Below, one piece after another: positions 40,406 through 44,097 of a stretch of DNA of 64,000 nucleotides; within the stretch, counting starts at the first letter, position 1, and every line of letters begins with the position of its first letter. The DNA comes from Microbacterium lemovicicum (GTDB taxonomy: Bacteria; Actinomycetota; Actinomycetes; Actinomycetales; Microbacteriaceae): assembly GCF_003991875.1 (NCBI RefSeq), contig NZ_CP031423.1, forward strand, positions 2,852,001-2,916,000, written 5' to 3'. Below the pieces are notes generated by a model. The model searched no databases and was not told the origin of the DNA. It saw only the letters and a list, made by a program, of their open reading frames with translations. The position numbers and the translations under genes are program-made.

Positions 40406-41581
40406 TCAGAGCTTCGCGAGCGCTCCGTCGACGTCGGCGAGCAGGTCGTCCACGCTCTCGATGCCGACCGACAGGCGCACGACCTCCTCGGGCACGGCGA
40501 GCGCGGTGCCGCGGACCGACGCATGGGTCATCGCGTCGGGGTAGTTGACGAGCGACTCCACACCGCCGAGCGACTCGGCCAGCTGGAAGAGGCGGGTCGA
40601 CTCCGCGAAGCGACGTGCGGAGGCGGCATCCTCCAGCGCCAGCGACACGATGCCGCCGAAGCGGGTCATCTGGCGCGCGGCCAGCTCGTGCCCGGGGTGC
40701 GAGGCGAGGCCCGGGTAGTAGACGCGCGCGACGCGGCCGGAGCCCTCGAGGTGCTCGGCGATGGCCTGAGCGCTCTCGCTGTGGCGCTGCATGCGCAGCG
40801 GCAGGGTCTTGATGCCGCGCGTCGTCAGCCACGCGTCGAGCGGACCCGACACCGCACCGGCGGCGAACTGAAGGAACCGCGCCCCCTCGGCGACCGTGTC
40901 GTCGTCGAGCACGAGGGCTCCCCCGACGACGTCGGAGTGTCCGCCCAGGTACTTCGTCGTCGAGTGCACGACGACGTCGGCGCCCAGCGAGAGCGGCCGC
41001 TGCAGCGCGGGCGAGGCGAAGGTGTTGTCGACGACGACGAGCGCGCCGACGGCGTGCCCGAGGGCGGCGAGACCCGCGATGTCGGTGATGCGCAGCAGCG
41101 GGTTGCTCGGCGTCTCCACCCACAGGATGCGGGCCGGGCGCTCCTCCAGCGCCGCGGCGACCGCACCGAGGTCGCTCATGTCGACGACGCGGAGCTTCAC
41201 GCCCCACGGTCCGAGCACGCGGGCGATGAGCCGGTAGGTGCCGCCGTAGACGTCGTCGCCGAGCAGCACCTCGTCCCCGGGGGTCAGCACGGAGCGCAGC
41301 AGTGCGTCCTCTGCGGCCAGGCCCGACGCGAACGAGATGCCGTGACGGCCGCCCTCGAGCGCGGCGAGCTGGGTCTCGAGCGCGGTGCGCGTCGGATTGC
41401 CGCTGCGACCGTACTCGTAGCCGCCGCGGAGTCCGCCGATGCCGTCCTGCGCGTAGGTCGTCGAGAAGTGCACGGGCGGGATGACCGCGCCGGTGGTCGG
41501 GTCGAAGGCCTGACCTGCGTGGACGGCGAGGCTCTCGATGCCGCGCGCGGCGCTGTGGGCGCCGGAGGTGTGATCGGTCAT
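40406..41581 (-). CDS. metB: Cystathionine gamma-synthase/lyase family enzyme
   Basis: 391 residues, PLP fold-type I Cys/Met metabolism family. YEYGRSGNPTRTALE, FASGLAAEDA, VDNTFASPALQRPLSLGADVVVHSTTKYLGGH with the Schiff-base Lys210, and SLGGVESLVNYPDAMTHAS. Its ATG overlaps the stop of the upstream cystathionine beta-synthase-like gene. As synthase it would join O-acyl-homoserine and cysteine. As lyase it would finish reverse transsulfuration from cystathionine to cysteine. The pairing favours the lyase or a dual role. Confidence 0.9.
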   Translation of the reverse strand: MTDHTSGAHSAARGIESLAVHAGQAFDPTTGAVIPPVHFSTTYAQDGIGGLRGGYEYGRSGNPTRTALETQLAALEGGRHGISFASGLAAEDALLRSVLTPGDEVLLGDDVYGGTYRLIARVLGPWGVKLRVVDMSDLGAVAAALEERPARILWVETPSNPLLRITDIAGLAALGHAVGALVVVDNTFASPALQRPLSLGADVVVHSTTKYLGGHSDVVGGALVLDDDTVAEGARFLQFAAGAVSGPLDAWLTTRGIKTLPLRMQRHSESAQAIAEHLEGSGRVARVYYPGLASHPGHELAARQMTRFGGIVSLALEDAASARRFAESTRLFQLAESLGGVESLVNYPDAMTHASVRGTALAVPEEVVRLSVGIESVDDLLADVDGALAKL

Positions 41582-42630
41582 GCAGAGGGTCCTTCGGTCG
41601 CGGAGCGGGCAGCAGAGTTGTCGGGGTCGCCGGGGCGGGGGTCGAATCCGGCGGGCAGGAGGGATGCCGCGGGCTCGACCTCGTAGCCGCGATCGGTCAT
41701 CCACCCGTCGTCGAAGATCTTCCGCACGTAGGCGCGGCCGTGGTCGGGCAGGACGACGATCATCACGGCGTCGGCGGGGAGGGTGCGGGCGACACGCAGC
41801 GCGCCCACCACGGCCATGCCGCTGGAGCCGCCGACGAGGAGCCCCTCCTCGCGGGCGAGGCGGCGGGTCATGGCGAAGGACTCGGCGTCGGAGACCCGCT
41901 CGTAGGCGTCGACCACGGTCGGGTCGAACGTCTCGGGCCAGAAGTCCTCGCCGACGCCTTCGACGTCGTAGCCGTGCGCGGGTCCGCCGGAGTAGATCGA
42001 GCCGACCGGCTCCACGCCGATCACGCGGACGGTGCCGTCGGAGATGTCGCGGAGGTAGCGGCCCGTGCCGGTGATGGTGCCGCCCGTGCCGATGCCCGCC
42101 ACCAGGTGGGTCACGCGGCCGTCGGTGTCGTCCCAGATCTCGGGACCTGTGGACTCGTAGTGCCCGCGGGGACCGTTCTGGTTCGCGAACTGGTTCGGCT
42201 TGAACGCCCCGGGGATCTCCCGGACGAGACGGTCGGACACGGAGTAGTACGAGCCGGGATGCTCCGGCGGCACGCTCGTCGCGGTCTCCACGACCTCCGC
42301 GCCGTACGCGCGCAGCACGTCGACCTTGTCGCCCGCGAACTTGTCGGGCACGACGAAGATCATGCGGTAGCCGCGCTGCAGCGCGATGAGCGCAAGCCCG
42401 ACGCCGGTGTTGCCGCTGGTGGGCTCGACGATCGTTCCACCCGGCTGGAGCGCGCCCGAGCGCTCGGCCTCGTCGATGATCGTGCGCGCGATGCGGTCCT
42501 TGGCCGAGCCGCCGGGGTTGAAGTACTCCACCTTCGCCAGCACGGTGGCGGCGATGCCGTCCGTGACGCGGTTCAGGCGGACGAGAGGTGTGCGGCCGAC
42601 GAGATCGGCGACACTCTGCGCGTAACGCAC
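41578..42630 (-). CDS. Cystathionine beta-synthase/cysteine synthase-like PLP enzyme without CBS domains
   Basis: 350 residues, fold-type II. Motifs: VGRTPLVRLNRV, VEYFNPGGSAKDRIA with PLP Lys44, PTSGNTGVGLALIALQRGY, GIGTGGTITGTGRYL and LLVGGSSGMAVVGAL. The downstream VRKIFDDGWM segment is characteristic of cystathionine beta-synthases. The usual C-terminal regulatory CBS pair is missing and replaced by a short Pro/Ala tail. It starts at a GTG with GAAGGA 9 nt upstream, behind a cysteine-rich leader ORF. It probably condenses serine with homocysteine, or makes cysteine from sulfide. Confidence 0.9.
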   Translation of the reverse strand: MRYAQSVADLVGRTPLVRLNRVTDGIAATVLAKVEYFNPGGSAKDRIARTIIDEAERSGALQPGGTIVEPTSGNTGVGLALIALQRGYRMIFVVPDKFAGDKVDVLRAYGAEVVETATSVPPEHPGSYYSVSDRLVREIPGAFKPNQFANQNGPRGHYESTGPEIWDDTDGRVTHLVAGIGTGGTITGTGRYLRDISDGTVRVIGVEPVGSIYSGGPAHGYDVEGVGEDFWPETFDPTVVDAYERVSDAESFAMTRRLAREEGLLVGGSSGMAVVGALRVARTLPADAVMIVVLPDHGRAYVRKIFDDGWMTDRGYEVEPAASLLPAGFDPRPGDPDNSAARSATEGPSA

Positions 42631-42640
42631 GAGATGTTGT

Positions 42641-42702
42641 CCTTCGGAAGGGCCGCGAGCGCGGCGTGCTGGAGGGTCGGCGAAGACGAGCGCGAAGCGC
42701 TC
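42641..42702 (-). promoter_or_regulatory. Candidate attenuator hairpins between leader ORF and its downstream gene
   Basis: On the minus strand after the leader peptide come three hairpins. The first is GAGCGC-TTC-GCGCTC (42688-42702), overlapping the leader stop codon. The second is GCCGC-loop-GCGGC (42652-42665). The third is CCTT-CCG-AAGG (42641-42651), which would pair with the Shine-Dalgarno GAAGGA of the main gene. Ribosome stalling on cysteine codons could change which of these form. Confidence 0.5.
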
Positions 42703-42727
42703 AGCGACAACACAGACAGGTCAGCAC
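42701..42727 (-). CDS. Cysteine-rich leader peptide ORF (MLTCLCCR)
   Basis: GTG CTG ACC TGT CTG TGT TGT CGC TGA, eight codons of which three are Cys. It lies 70 nt before the start of the cystathionine beta-synthase-like gene. TAGAGT ends 7 nt before the GTG, so the transcript is probably leaderless at this ORF. Short leaderless polycysteine ORFs that sense cysteine supply are known upstream of sulfur genes in mycobacteria; this has the same layout. Stalling at scarce Cys-tRNA would expose the downstream start. Confidence 0.75.
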   Translation of the reverse strand: MLTCLCCR

Positions 42728-42734
42728 GGCGACC

Positions 42735-42768
42735 ACTCTAGCCCGAACCGGGCGCTGCCACCCGGTTC
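42735..42768. promoter_or_regulatory. Divergent promoter region with inverted repeat
   Basis: The minus strand carries TAGAGT (42740-42735) as the -10 box of the leader-ORF/transsulfuration transcript. A perfect inverted repeat, GAACCGGG (42745-42752) and CCCGGTTC (42761-42768), covers the -35 position. GAGAAT at 42773-42778 is the probable -10 box of the divergent sufS. The repeat could be an operator controlling both directions. Confidence 0.55.
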
Positions 42769-42786
42769 GCGGGAGAATGGAGGTCT

Positions 42787-44097
42787 ATGACCTCCGCATC
42801 CGCCCTCGCTCCCGATCACGCGTCGCCCGACGGCGGCCGCGGGCCGCGGCATCCGCTCGACGTCGCCCACATCCGTGAGGATTTCGCCTTCGTGGGCGCC
42901 GGCGACCGCATCTACCTCGACTCCGGCGCGACCTCGCAGCGCCCGTCGGCCGTCCTGGACGCCGAGCGCTCGTTCGTCGAGACCTCGTACGCGGCGGTGC
43001 ACCGCGGGTCGAGCGAGGCCACCGGCTCCGCCACGAGCGCCTTCGAAGACGCCCGCGACGACGTCGCGCGCTTCGTCGGCGCGGGCGCGGGCCAGATCGT
43101 CTTCACCGAGAACGCGACGGACGCCCTGAACGTGGTGGCCCTGGGTCTGTCGGATGCCTCGCTCGGCCTCGGCGCCCCCGAGCTCGCCCTGAAGCCCGGC
43201 GACGAGATCCTCCTGACCGAGGCGGAGCACCACGCCAACCTCATCCCCTGGCAGCGGCTCGCCCTGCGCACCGGCGCCGTGCTGCGCTGGGCCGCGGTCG
43301 ACGACGACGGGCTGTGGGGCATCGACGACCTCGCCGCGGCATCCGGGCCCCGCACCCGGGTGATCGCGTTCGGGCACGTCTCGAACGTCACCGGCGCACT
43401 CGCACCCGTCGCTGACGTCGTCGACCTCGCGAAGACGCTCGGCGCGATCACGGTGCTCGACGCGTGCCAATCCGTGCCGCACCGACCGGTCGACCTGGGA
43501 GTGCTCGGAGTGGATCTTGCGGCGTTCTCCGGGCACAAGATGCTCGGCCCCACGGGCATTGGGGTGCTCTACGGGCGGTCGGAGATCCTCGACTCCCTCC
43601 CACCGGCGCGCACCGGCGGATCCACCATCACGACCGTGACGATGGATGCCGCGGAGTTCCTTCCGGCACCGCAGCGCTTCGAGGCGGGCACGCAGCCGGT
43701 GAGCCAGGCCGTCGGACTGGGTGCCGCCGTGCGCTACCTCGAGGGTCTCGGCATGGACGAGGTGCTCGCGCACGAGGACGAGCTGGCGGCCCTGCTCGTC
43801 GAGGCCGTCACCCGCGTGCCCGGCGTGCGGCTGTTCGGGCCGCGCCCCGGCGCCGACCGGGCGGCGATCGTGAGCTTCACGGTCGACGGCGTGCACGCGC
43901 ACGACGTGGGGCAGTTCCTCGACGACCGCGGGATCACGCTGCGCACGGGTCACCACTGCGCGCAGCCGCTCCACCGCCGGCTCGGCGTCGCCGCCACGAC
44001 GCGCGCGAGCGGCTACGTCTACACGACGGCCGACGAGATCGAGCGCTTCGGCGGCGCCCTCGCCGAGGTGCGCGCGTTCTTCGGAGCAGACCGATGA
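42787..44097 (+). CDS. sufS: SufS-type cysteine desulfurase
   Basis: 436 residues. IYLDSGATSQRP, ENATDALNVVALGL, EAEHHANLIPWQ, FGHVSNVTGALAPV, PLP lysine in AAFSGHKMLGPTGIGVL (Lys251) and catalytic Cys391 in RTGHHCAQPLHRR. It removes sulfur from cysteine as a persulfide for Fe-S assembly. GGAGG lies just before the ATG. Its stop overlaps sufU. It is divergent from the transsulfuration genes, tying cysteine supply to Fe-S demand. Confidence 0.96.
   Translation: MTSASALAPDHASPDGGRGPRHPLDVAHIREDFAFVGAGDRIYLDSGATSQRPSAVLDAERSFVETSYAAVHRGSSEATGSATSAFEDARDDVARFVGAGAGQIVFTENATDALNVVALGLSDASLGLGAPELALKPGDEILLTEAEHHANLIPWQRLALRTGAVLRWAAVDDDGLWGIDDLAAASGPRTRVIAFGHVSNVTGALAPVADVVDLAKTLGAITVLDACQSVPHRPVDLGVLGVDLAAFSGHKMLGPTGIGVLYGRSEILDSLPPARTGGSTITTVTMDAAEFLPAPQRFEAGTQPVSQAVGLGAAVRYLEGLGMDEVLAHEDELAALLVEAVTRVPGVRLFGPRPGADRAAIVSFTVDGVHAHDVGQFLDDRGITLRTGHHCAQPLHRRLGVAATTRASGYVYTTADEIERFGGALAEVRAFFGADR

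Follow-up and report, generated by a model that had tools for sequence, protein, structure and literature searches.

In a 64,000-nucleotide (nt) stretch of the Microbacterium lemovicicum genome (contig NZ_CP031423.1, positions 2,852,001 to 2,916,000; hereafter the window), a predicted leaderless open reading frame (ORF) of eight codons precedes cbs, a cystathionine beta-synthase-like gene. This ORF very probably belongs to an attenuator that works through a ribosome, responds to cysteine and controls a reverse-transsulfuration operon made up of cbs followed by a cystathionine gamma-lyase/synthase gene. A preliminary description of the window had proposed such an attenuation layout from a leaderless ORF with three Cys codons lying 70 nt ahead of the cbs-like gene and from a TAGAGT box ending 7 nt before its GTG. 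Both features are in place in the DNA and are borne out in relatives, and the core idea is strongly supported by the comparisons below, from which we infer cysteine dependence and translation of the leader. The predicted peptide is VLTCLCCR (initiator V read as M) and its stop codon is separated by 70 nt from the GTG of cbs (position 42630, minus strand).

Conservation of the leader within the genus exceeds what chance would give. The window CBS protein was searched against 149 Microbacterium genomes, and the DNA upstream of 110 Microbacterium cbs orthologues was examined (30 from the search and 80 fetched; orthologues G030, G124 and G125, with at least 70% identity, lie outside this set). The Cys leader is present in 80 of the 110. 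The first scan for leaders required A...T before the start codon, and a rescan that dropped any promoter requirement returned a Cys ORF in the identical 80 and in none of the other 30. A TANNNT hexamer lies 6 nt ahead of the start codon in 59 leaders and 7 nt ahead in 20 (79 of 80 together), the last one having no TANNNT in the 14 nt before its start. In M. lemovicicum a transcript directed by the -10 box would begin on the leader GTG itself, giving the predicted leaderless form. The commonest Microbacterium leader peptides are VLTCRCCR (29 leaders), VLTCRCCRPCC (10) and VSLTCRCCR (8), and the peptide of the window is found in 2 of the 80.

A strict scan, asking for TANNNT, a gap of 5-7 nt, RTG, an ORF of no more than 14 codons and, among its final eight residues, CC or three C, gives the leader site as its sole match in the window. 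Applied to both strands of 168 cbs loci (1,309,416 bases, several loci of the same species included), it returned 59 matches, all of them 60-260 nt before cbs, and none away from cbs upstream regions. Eight codons is short enough to raise the question of a chance ORF, but the presence of the leader in 80 of 110 orthologues, together with 59 matches before cbs against none elsewhere in 1.31 Mb, refutes that explanation and leaves it a negligible probability. It is also very unlikely that the stretch is conserved solely as an RNA element, or as a binding site near the promoter, with an untranslated ORF. In favour of this, nucleotides are conserved as well as residues within Microbacterium, but the start codon set by the -10 box shares its frame with the Cys motif, and no other frame does, in 79 of 80 leaders (8-11 codons), and across genera the ends of the peptide change while clustered in-frame Cys codons remain. 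The genome of M. lemovicicum was also searched for a second leader by way of TGYTGYCGNTGA, the one leader ending sought: of 41 sites, the 30 fetched include none in a leaderless context and 9 are unchecked, and the other two sit in the window, where the strict scan covers them.

The leader extends to other genera of the Microbacteriaceae. A leaderless Cys ORF was identified in 27 of 89 cbs upstream regions from these genera (L121-L209); a looser scan of the same regions gave 32, which likely include chance matches. Their peptides include VSSSFPCCRCR, MFAGFRCCRR, VFVTCCCRCR, VPVYSSCCCCR, MRVSPSCCCR and VINTRLCCCCL, among others, in which the Cys cluster is kept and the remainder of the peptide differs. 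Variable residues ahead of a fixed Cys cluster are the pattern expected if the codons, rather than the peptide, matter. The preliminary description had proposed comparing orthologous upstream regions across the family, and this comparison found what it had anticipated, namely conserved Cys codons in variable surroundings. Among 109 further cbs loci (L210-L318) the leaderless Cys ORF is present in 18. Seventeen of these are Microbacteriaceae, among whose genera we take Herbiconiux, Naasia, Agromyces and Cryobacterium to be, and one (L222) is an Actinomycetota bacterium, apparently a Microbacterium; some of the L210-L222 records repeat species among the Microbacterium genomes and are excluded from the 80 of 110. 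No leaderless match was found in the Streptomyces, Arthrobacter, Streptosporangium, Gordonia and other records of the same 109, and three loci (L226, L231 and L258) have Cys ORFs outside a leaderless context. A search of 299 family genomes with the pattern RTGYTGACNTGYCRNTGYTGYCGNTGA, two mismatches allowed, matched only the genome of M. lemovicicum and, twice, G189. The G189 matches lie within a long transposase-like frame, which we take to be of the IS256 type, and were set aside as chance. The RTGYTGACNTGYCRNTGYTGYCGNTGA search underestimates the spread of the leader, because leaders of other wording from the same genus (G034, G045) were missed.

Downstream of the leader, three RNA features recur in relatives at defined places: a hairpin beginning inside the leader stop codon (P1), a C-rich element complementary to the Cys-codon strand (ARM) and a second hairpin upstream of the Shine-Dalgarno sequence (P2), with coordinates given in Table 1. 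The 100-nt leader of M. lemovicicum has a predicted fold of -37.4 kcal/mol (z -2.11; 7 of 200 shuffles as stable), and over the 80 Microbacterium leaders the mean folding z is -3.0, with values below -1 in 70. In these relatives P1 has a helix score of 15.1 against 9.7 for shuffles and exceeds the shuffle mean in 77 of 80, with 33 distinct stems; its median start is 1 nt from the first base of the stop, the search having begun 1 nt before the stop. For P2 the score is 17.2 against 12.1; 75 of 80 exceed the shuffle mean, 37 distinct stems occur, and the 3' end of P2 lies 19-23 nt ahead of the main start (10th to 90th percentile). The preliminary description had placed a hairpin over the leader stop and a small stem on the Shine-Dalgarno sequence of cbs. 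Both are contained in the predicted 100-nt fold, and the stop hairpin holds up in relatives, but the small stem is not conserved, relatives carrying mostly CNCAGGA without a matching arm (alignment A1, by eye).

The core of ARM, CGACC, is found in the first 70 nt past the leader stop in 74 of 80 leaders from Microbacterium and in 19 of 27 from other genera, compared with 16 of 92 cbs upstream regions lacking a leader and 21% of shuffles. The association with the leader gives Fisher p values of 4e-25 (Microbacterium) and 5e-7 (other genera) against the same 92 controls, values computed on related sequences and so not true probabilities. In free RNA, a mean of 9.7 pairs is predicted between the Cys strand and ARM, and at least 3 leader-ARM pairs are predicted in 79 of 80 leaders. 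The mean duplex energy over the 80 leaders is -15.1 kcal/mol as opposed to -10.9 kcal/mol with shuffled arms; a leader's own duplex is more stable than the shuffle mean in 71 of 80 and more stable than all 60 shuffles in 9. Base composition is likewise tied to the leader. An excess of C over G larger than 0.1 is seen in 80 of 80 Microbacterium leader regions (taken over the 67-100 nt after the leader stop) and in 22 of 27 from other genera, as against 1 of 30 and 10 of 62 upstream regions without a leader, respectively.

The Cys codons of the leader are almost exclusively TGT. The ratio of TGT to TGC is 238 to 17 in the 80 Microbacterium leaders and 65 to 7 in the 27 from other genera, while the aligned parts of CBS, cystathionine gamma-synthase and SufS in 30 loci contain 0 and 20, and four window ORFs 1 and 9. 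Between the first and second Cys codons stands a variable codon (CGC, CGT, CGG, CAG, CTG or CAC). We tentatively suggest that the Cys codons could also be the antisense strand of the switch, with selection for UGU, where the neighbouring genes use UGC, and for a C-rich, G-poor downstream strand keeping the codons complementary to a single element. A need for the codons to pair with a single G-poor partner would account for the UGU bias and the C-rich strand alike; an equal possibility is that UGU is favoured as a wobble-read, slower codon. If this suggestion is correct, the sensing codons and the switching helix would be the same nucleotides, and several Microbacteriaceae genera would share a terminator-less, translation-level cysteine switch that is missing from the Microbacterium clade with full-length CBS. 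The preference for UGU over UGC also provides a signature usable for finding further leaders of this kind.

Table 1. Coordinates of the leader, its predicted RNA features and the adjacent genes in the M. lemovicicum window.
Feature	Position	Strand	Sequence or supporting match
-10 box	42740..42735	minus	TAGAGT; ends 7 nt ahead of leader GTG
Leader ORF, leaderless	42727..42701	minus	GTGCTGACCTGTCTGTGTTGTCGCTGA; GTG start, TGA stop
Cys codons (putative sensing role)	42718-42716, 42712-42710, 42709-42707 (span 42707..42718)	minus	all TGT
P1 hairpin, starting inside leader stop codon	42702..42688	minus	GAGCGC-TTC-GCGCTC; predicted folds
ARM, C-rich element complementary to Cys-codon strand	42682..42668	minus	CGCCGACCCTCCAGC (relatives CGACGACCCCGACAGC)
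P2 hairpin, upstream of Shine-Dalgarno	42665..42652	minus	GCCGC-GCTC-GCGGC; predicted fold
Small stem on Shine-Dalgarno	42651-42641	minus	CCTT-CCG-AAGG; in predicted fold
Shine-Dalgarno of cbs	42644-42640	minus	AAGGA; sequence
cbs, cystathionine beta-synthase-like (350 amino acids)	42630..41578	minus	Pfam PALP only
Cystathionine gamma-synthase/lyase gene	41581..40406	minus	Cys_Met_Meta_PP; NF005871, 614.7 bits (cut-off 513)
sufS, divergent	42787-44097	plus	TIGR01979

On the proposed mechanism, a 70S ribosome would begin translation at the transcript's 5' end. When Cys-tRNA is plentiful it would leave fast, the Cys-codon strand would zip onto ARM, and cbs expression would be low. With scarce Cys-tRNA it would wait on the UGU codons and hold open both the stem between the Cys strand and ARM and the stop hairpin, leaving a long C-rich single strand ahead of P2 and the Shine-Dalgarno sequence, and cbs would be made. 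No intrinsic terminator (stem plus U-run) was found between the leader and cbs. There is no U-run after P1 or P2 in M. lemovicicum, a run of five T between the leader start and the main start occurs in only 1 of 80 relatives, and the sole terminator-like match (42734-42719) overlies the leader start itself. As there is no U-run, the output should be either translation initiation on cbs or Rho. Our preferred readout, at about even confidence, is access of the small ribosomal subunit to the cbs ribosome-binding site.

Ranked second, and doubtful by comparison, is a readout in which the same Cys-sensing leader acts through Rho-dependent termination in the C-rich stretch, the stalled ribosome altering the access of Rho. 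A C-rich, G-poor composition is expected of Rho loading sites and, as noted above, the 67-100 nt after the leader stop have it in every Microbacterium leader region and in 1 of 30 regions without one; the missing U-runs and the position of the only terminator-like match point the same way. Rho has been proposed for Cys leaders before, in the available text as a weak prediction (Seliverstov 2005; PMC1262725). A ribosome on the Cys codons would, however, cover few bases past the stop, with no obvious shielding of the C-rich stretch, and in the fold model stalling exposes more of the C-rich strand, which is the wrong direction for induction unless another step intervenes.

Several observations weigh against the attenuator as proposed. 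The leader is missing from 30 of the 110 Microbacterium orthologues. Its promoter has no recognisable -35 in a sigma-70 consensus scan of 42300-42900, so that the promoter is called from the -10 box and the conserved position of that box. In the Microbacterium leaders, conservation extends beyond Cys to Thr and Arg, and pure tRNA sensing needs neither. These two non-Cys residues would fit a role of TCRCCR as a nascent-chain arrest peptide, or as a redox or thiol sensor in the exit tunnel, in place of a sensor of tRNA charging. We consider this very unlikely: unrelated residues precede the Cys cluster in other genera, the codon separating the first and second Cys codons is variable and perhaps constrained by RNA pairing, and eight residues hardly fill the exit tunnel.

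The switching helix and the release of the ribosome-binding site account for the remaining contrary points. There is no compensatory covariation between the Cys strand and ARM, and arms swapped between species pair equally well. Scores for own and permuted helices were 13.27 and 13.23 (p 0.41, 62 unique pairs) and 16.39 and 16.46 (p 0.70, 61 unique Microbacterium pairs); p ranged from 0.31 to 0.61 in the first set, in which 94 of 107 rows were kept after removal of those without a usable CGAC[CT] motif, and was 0.70 in the second. A foreign arm binds better than the leader's own 48% of the time. Neither the Cys strand nor ARM varies enough to leave compensatory changes to count. Relative to shuffled downstream sequence, Cys-strand pairs are only slightly more numerous (mean z 0.46 in 40 Microbacterium leaders and 0.69 in 27 others), and RNAalifold on a MAFFT alignment gave 6 pairs, none of them covarying. 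Equilibrium folding does not distinguish a ribosome placed at a Cys codon from a ribosome placed at the stop, and when a stalled ribosome is modelled the Cys strand loses its pairing through the model constraint itself, which is not a finding. With a ribosome on the second Cys codon, the last 20 nt are computed to be unpaired with a probability of 0.646, up from 0.585, but the opening of the ribosome-binding site in the stalled state is 0.070 compared with 0.095 for shuffled leaders (40/80 leaders). Sequestration of the Shine-Dalgarno sequence by the leader is not supported on this ground, shuffled leaders opening more. Nor is the wiring through a stem on the Shine-Dalgarno sequence, as first described: the stem is not conserved, and in computation a stalled ribosome frees the ribosome-binding site by no more than in shuffled leaders.

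The partner genes, a CBS-like/CGS pair in the preliminary description, match protein profiles as a cbs-like gene and a cystathionine gamma-synthase/lyase gene. The pair looks like a reverse-transsulfuration operon, a pathway that makes cysteine from homocysteine. The ATG of the gamma-synthase/lyase gene overlaps the TGA of cbs by 4 nt (ATGA, 41581-41578), the profile queries having begun one codon upstream at 41584, and in 29 of 30 Microbacterium loci cbs is followed by a gamma-synthase gene. The window CBS protein scores 477 bits against TIGR01137 (cysta_beta), below the cut-off of 510.25, and aligns to profile positions 2-321 of 457. It has the PLP fold only, and a C-terminal CBS-pair domain was not found in it by Pfam, its loss being examined for the window protein alone. 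All 30 leader-bearing cbs genes examined for length (L007-L036) encode 328-385 amino acids. Of 20 further full cbs genes, 18 are from the leader-less Microbacterium clade and encode 458-484 amino acids (among L389-L407); the exception is a 460-amino-acid CBS with a leader (G085, L398), and in G034 (L408) the leader is present and the cbs frame ends at 254 amino acids. Other genera pair leaders with full-length CBS enzymes, so the leader does not depend on a short CBS, and its link with short CBS within Microbacterium may reflect one clade.

No match to the PAPS/APS reductase family (PF01507) was found in the M. lemovicicum genome, which would make the supply of cysteine from methionine and homocysteine important. 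Among 20 Microbacterium genomes searched, the family is present in 5 and missing from 15, suggesting loss of assimilatory sulfate reduction, and the 10 PF01507 loci of those 5 genomes have no leader. Searches with Rfam models returned nothing in the leader: the whole window gave one tRNA at the gathering threshold, and 5 leader and 15 leader-less upstream loci gave no leader match at E <= 0.1, the sole match in these 20 loci being a microRNA in L087, which lacks a leader (37 bits; gathering score 100).

On the other side of the leader, sufS is divergent to it in the genome of M. lemovicicum only, among 30 Microbacterium loci with 1.5 kb flanks, and its position is apparently a local rearrangement. 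A hairpin (GGAGGTC-TAT-GACCTCC, 42779-42795) covers the Shine-Dalgarno sequence and ATG of sufS, as seen by eye. Also by eye, a perfect 8+8 inverted repeat (GAACCGGG, 8 nt, CCCGGTTC; 42745-42768, minus strand) spans the -35 region of the leader promoter. It was not apparent in the upstream sequences of relatives looked at and is a possible operator.

Classical attenuators such as those of trp and his have leader peptides rich in codons for the pathway product and alternative pairing of the leader strand. The Microbacteriaceae leader is like them in both respects and unlike them in having no intrinsic terminator, a leaderless start and a hairpin at the leader stop. Published Cys leaders are closer relatives, and are compared here on the basis of the available portions of the cited texts. 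Leaders with runs of Cys codons were predicted ahead of cys operons in Mycobacterium and Propionibacterium acnes and ahead of cbs in Bifidobacterium longum (Seliverstov 2005; PMC1262725). No conserved terminator hairpins were reported for Mycobacterium, and the mode of action was left open with Rho weakly suggested (Seliverstov 2005; PMC1262725). The leader described here resembles that of B. longum cbs in being a short ORF upstream of cbs with a Cys run near its stop and no terminator; unlike the leaders predicted in 2005, those of the Microbacteriaceae have conserved hairpins and a complementary element. Microbacteriaceae are not mentioned among the leaders in the available text of that paper (PMC1262725), and no Microbacteriaceae Cys leader was among the matches listed in the open-licence literature. 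The preliminary description had known of no described case in this lineage or before a CBS-like/CGS pair; the first part stands among the matches listed, whereas a cbs case was already predicted in 2005 for B. longum (PMC1262725).

In agreement with the preliminary description's remark that polycysteine leader ORFs are known in mycobacteria, the accessible text of a review describes leaderless M. smegmatis ORFs, their Cys codons contiguous, as able to control the genes behind them by cysteine-dependent attenuation (PMC9031893), and the leaderless mycobacterial polycysteine ORFs are credited by citing articles (PMC9031893, PMC9094748, PMC13236596) to Canestrari 2020 (Mol Microbiol 114:93). Shared with these, as far as the cited passages describe them, are the leaderless form, contiguous Cys codons, cysteine-related genes and ribosome speed as the proposed signal. 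The Microbacteriaceae leaders differ in the cbs-cgl operon, the near-exclusive use of UGU and the lineage. They may also differ in their conserved stop hairpin, complementary C-rich element and second hairpin. A single leader of this form was found in M. lemovicicum, 9 of the 41 candidate sites being unchecked, as against several loci spoken of in mycobacteria. Conserved, ribosome-occupied Cys-rich upstream ORFs have also been reported in mycobacteria (Shell 2015; PMC4633059), and the ORF upstream of cysA2 is, like the present one, a conserved small ORF with C-terminal Cys codons ahead of a sulfur gene (PMC4633059). Gene and lineage differ from the cysA2 case, which is experimental, while the Microbacteriaceae leader is a prediction from sequence.

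The Microbacteriaceae leader is in these terms a fresh lineage of an already known kind of regulator, its occurrence before cbs having been proposed previously. The lineage has many sequenced species and RNA parts conserved at defined places, and the leader sits in a bacterium with no PAPS/APS reductase match, which would make its cysteine from methionine. How a terminator-less Cys leader controls its operon, a question open since 2005, here becomes testable by point mutations.
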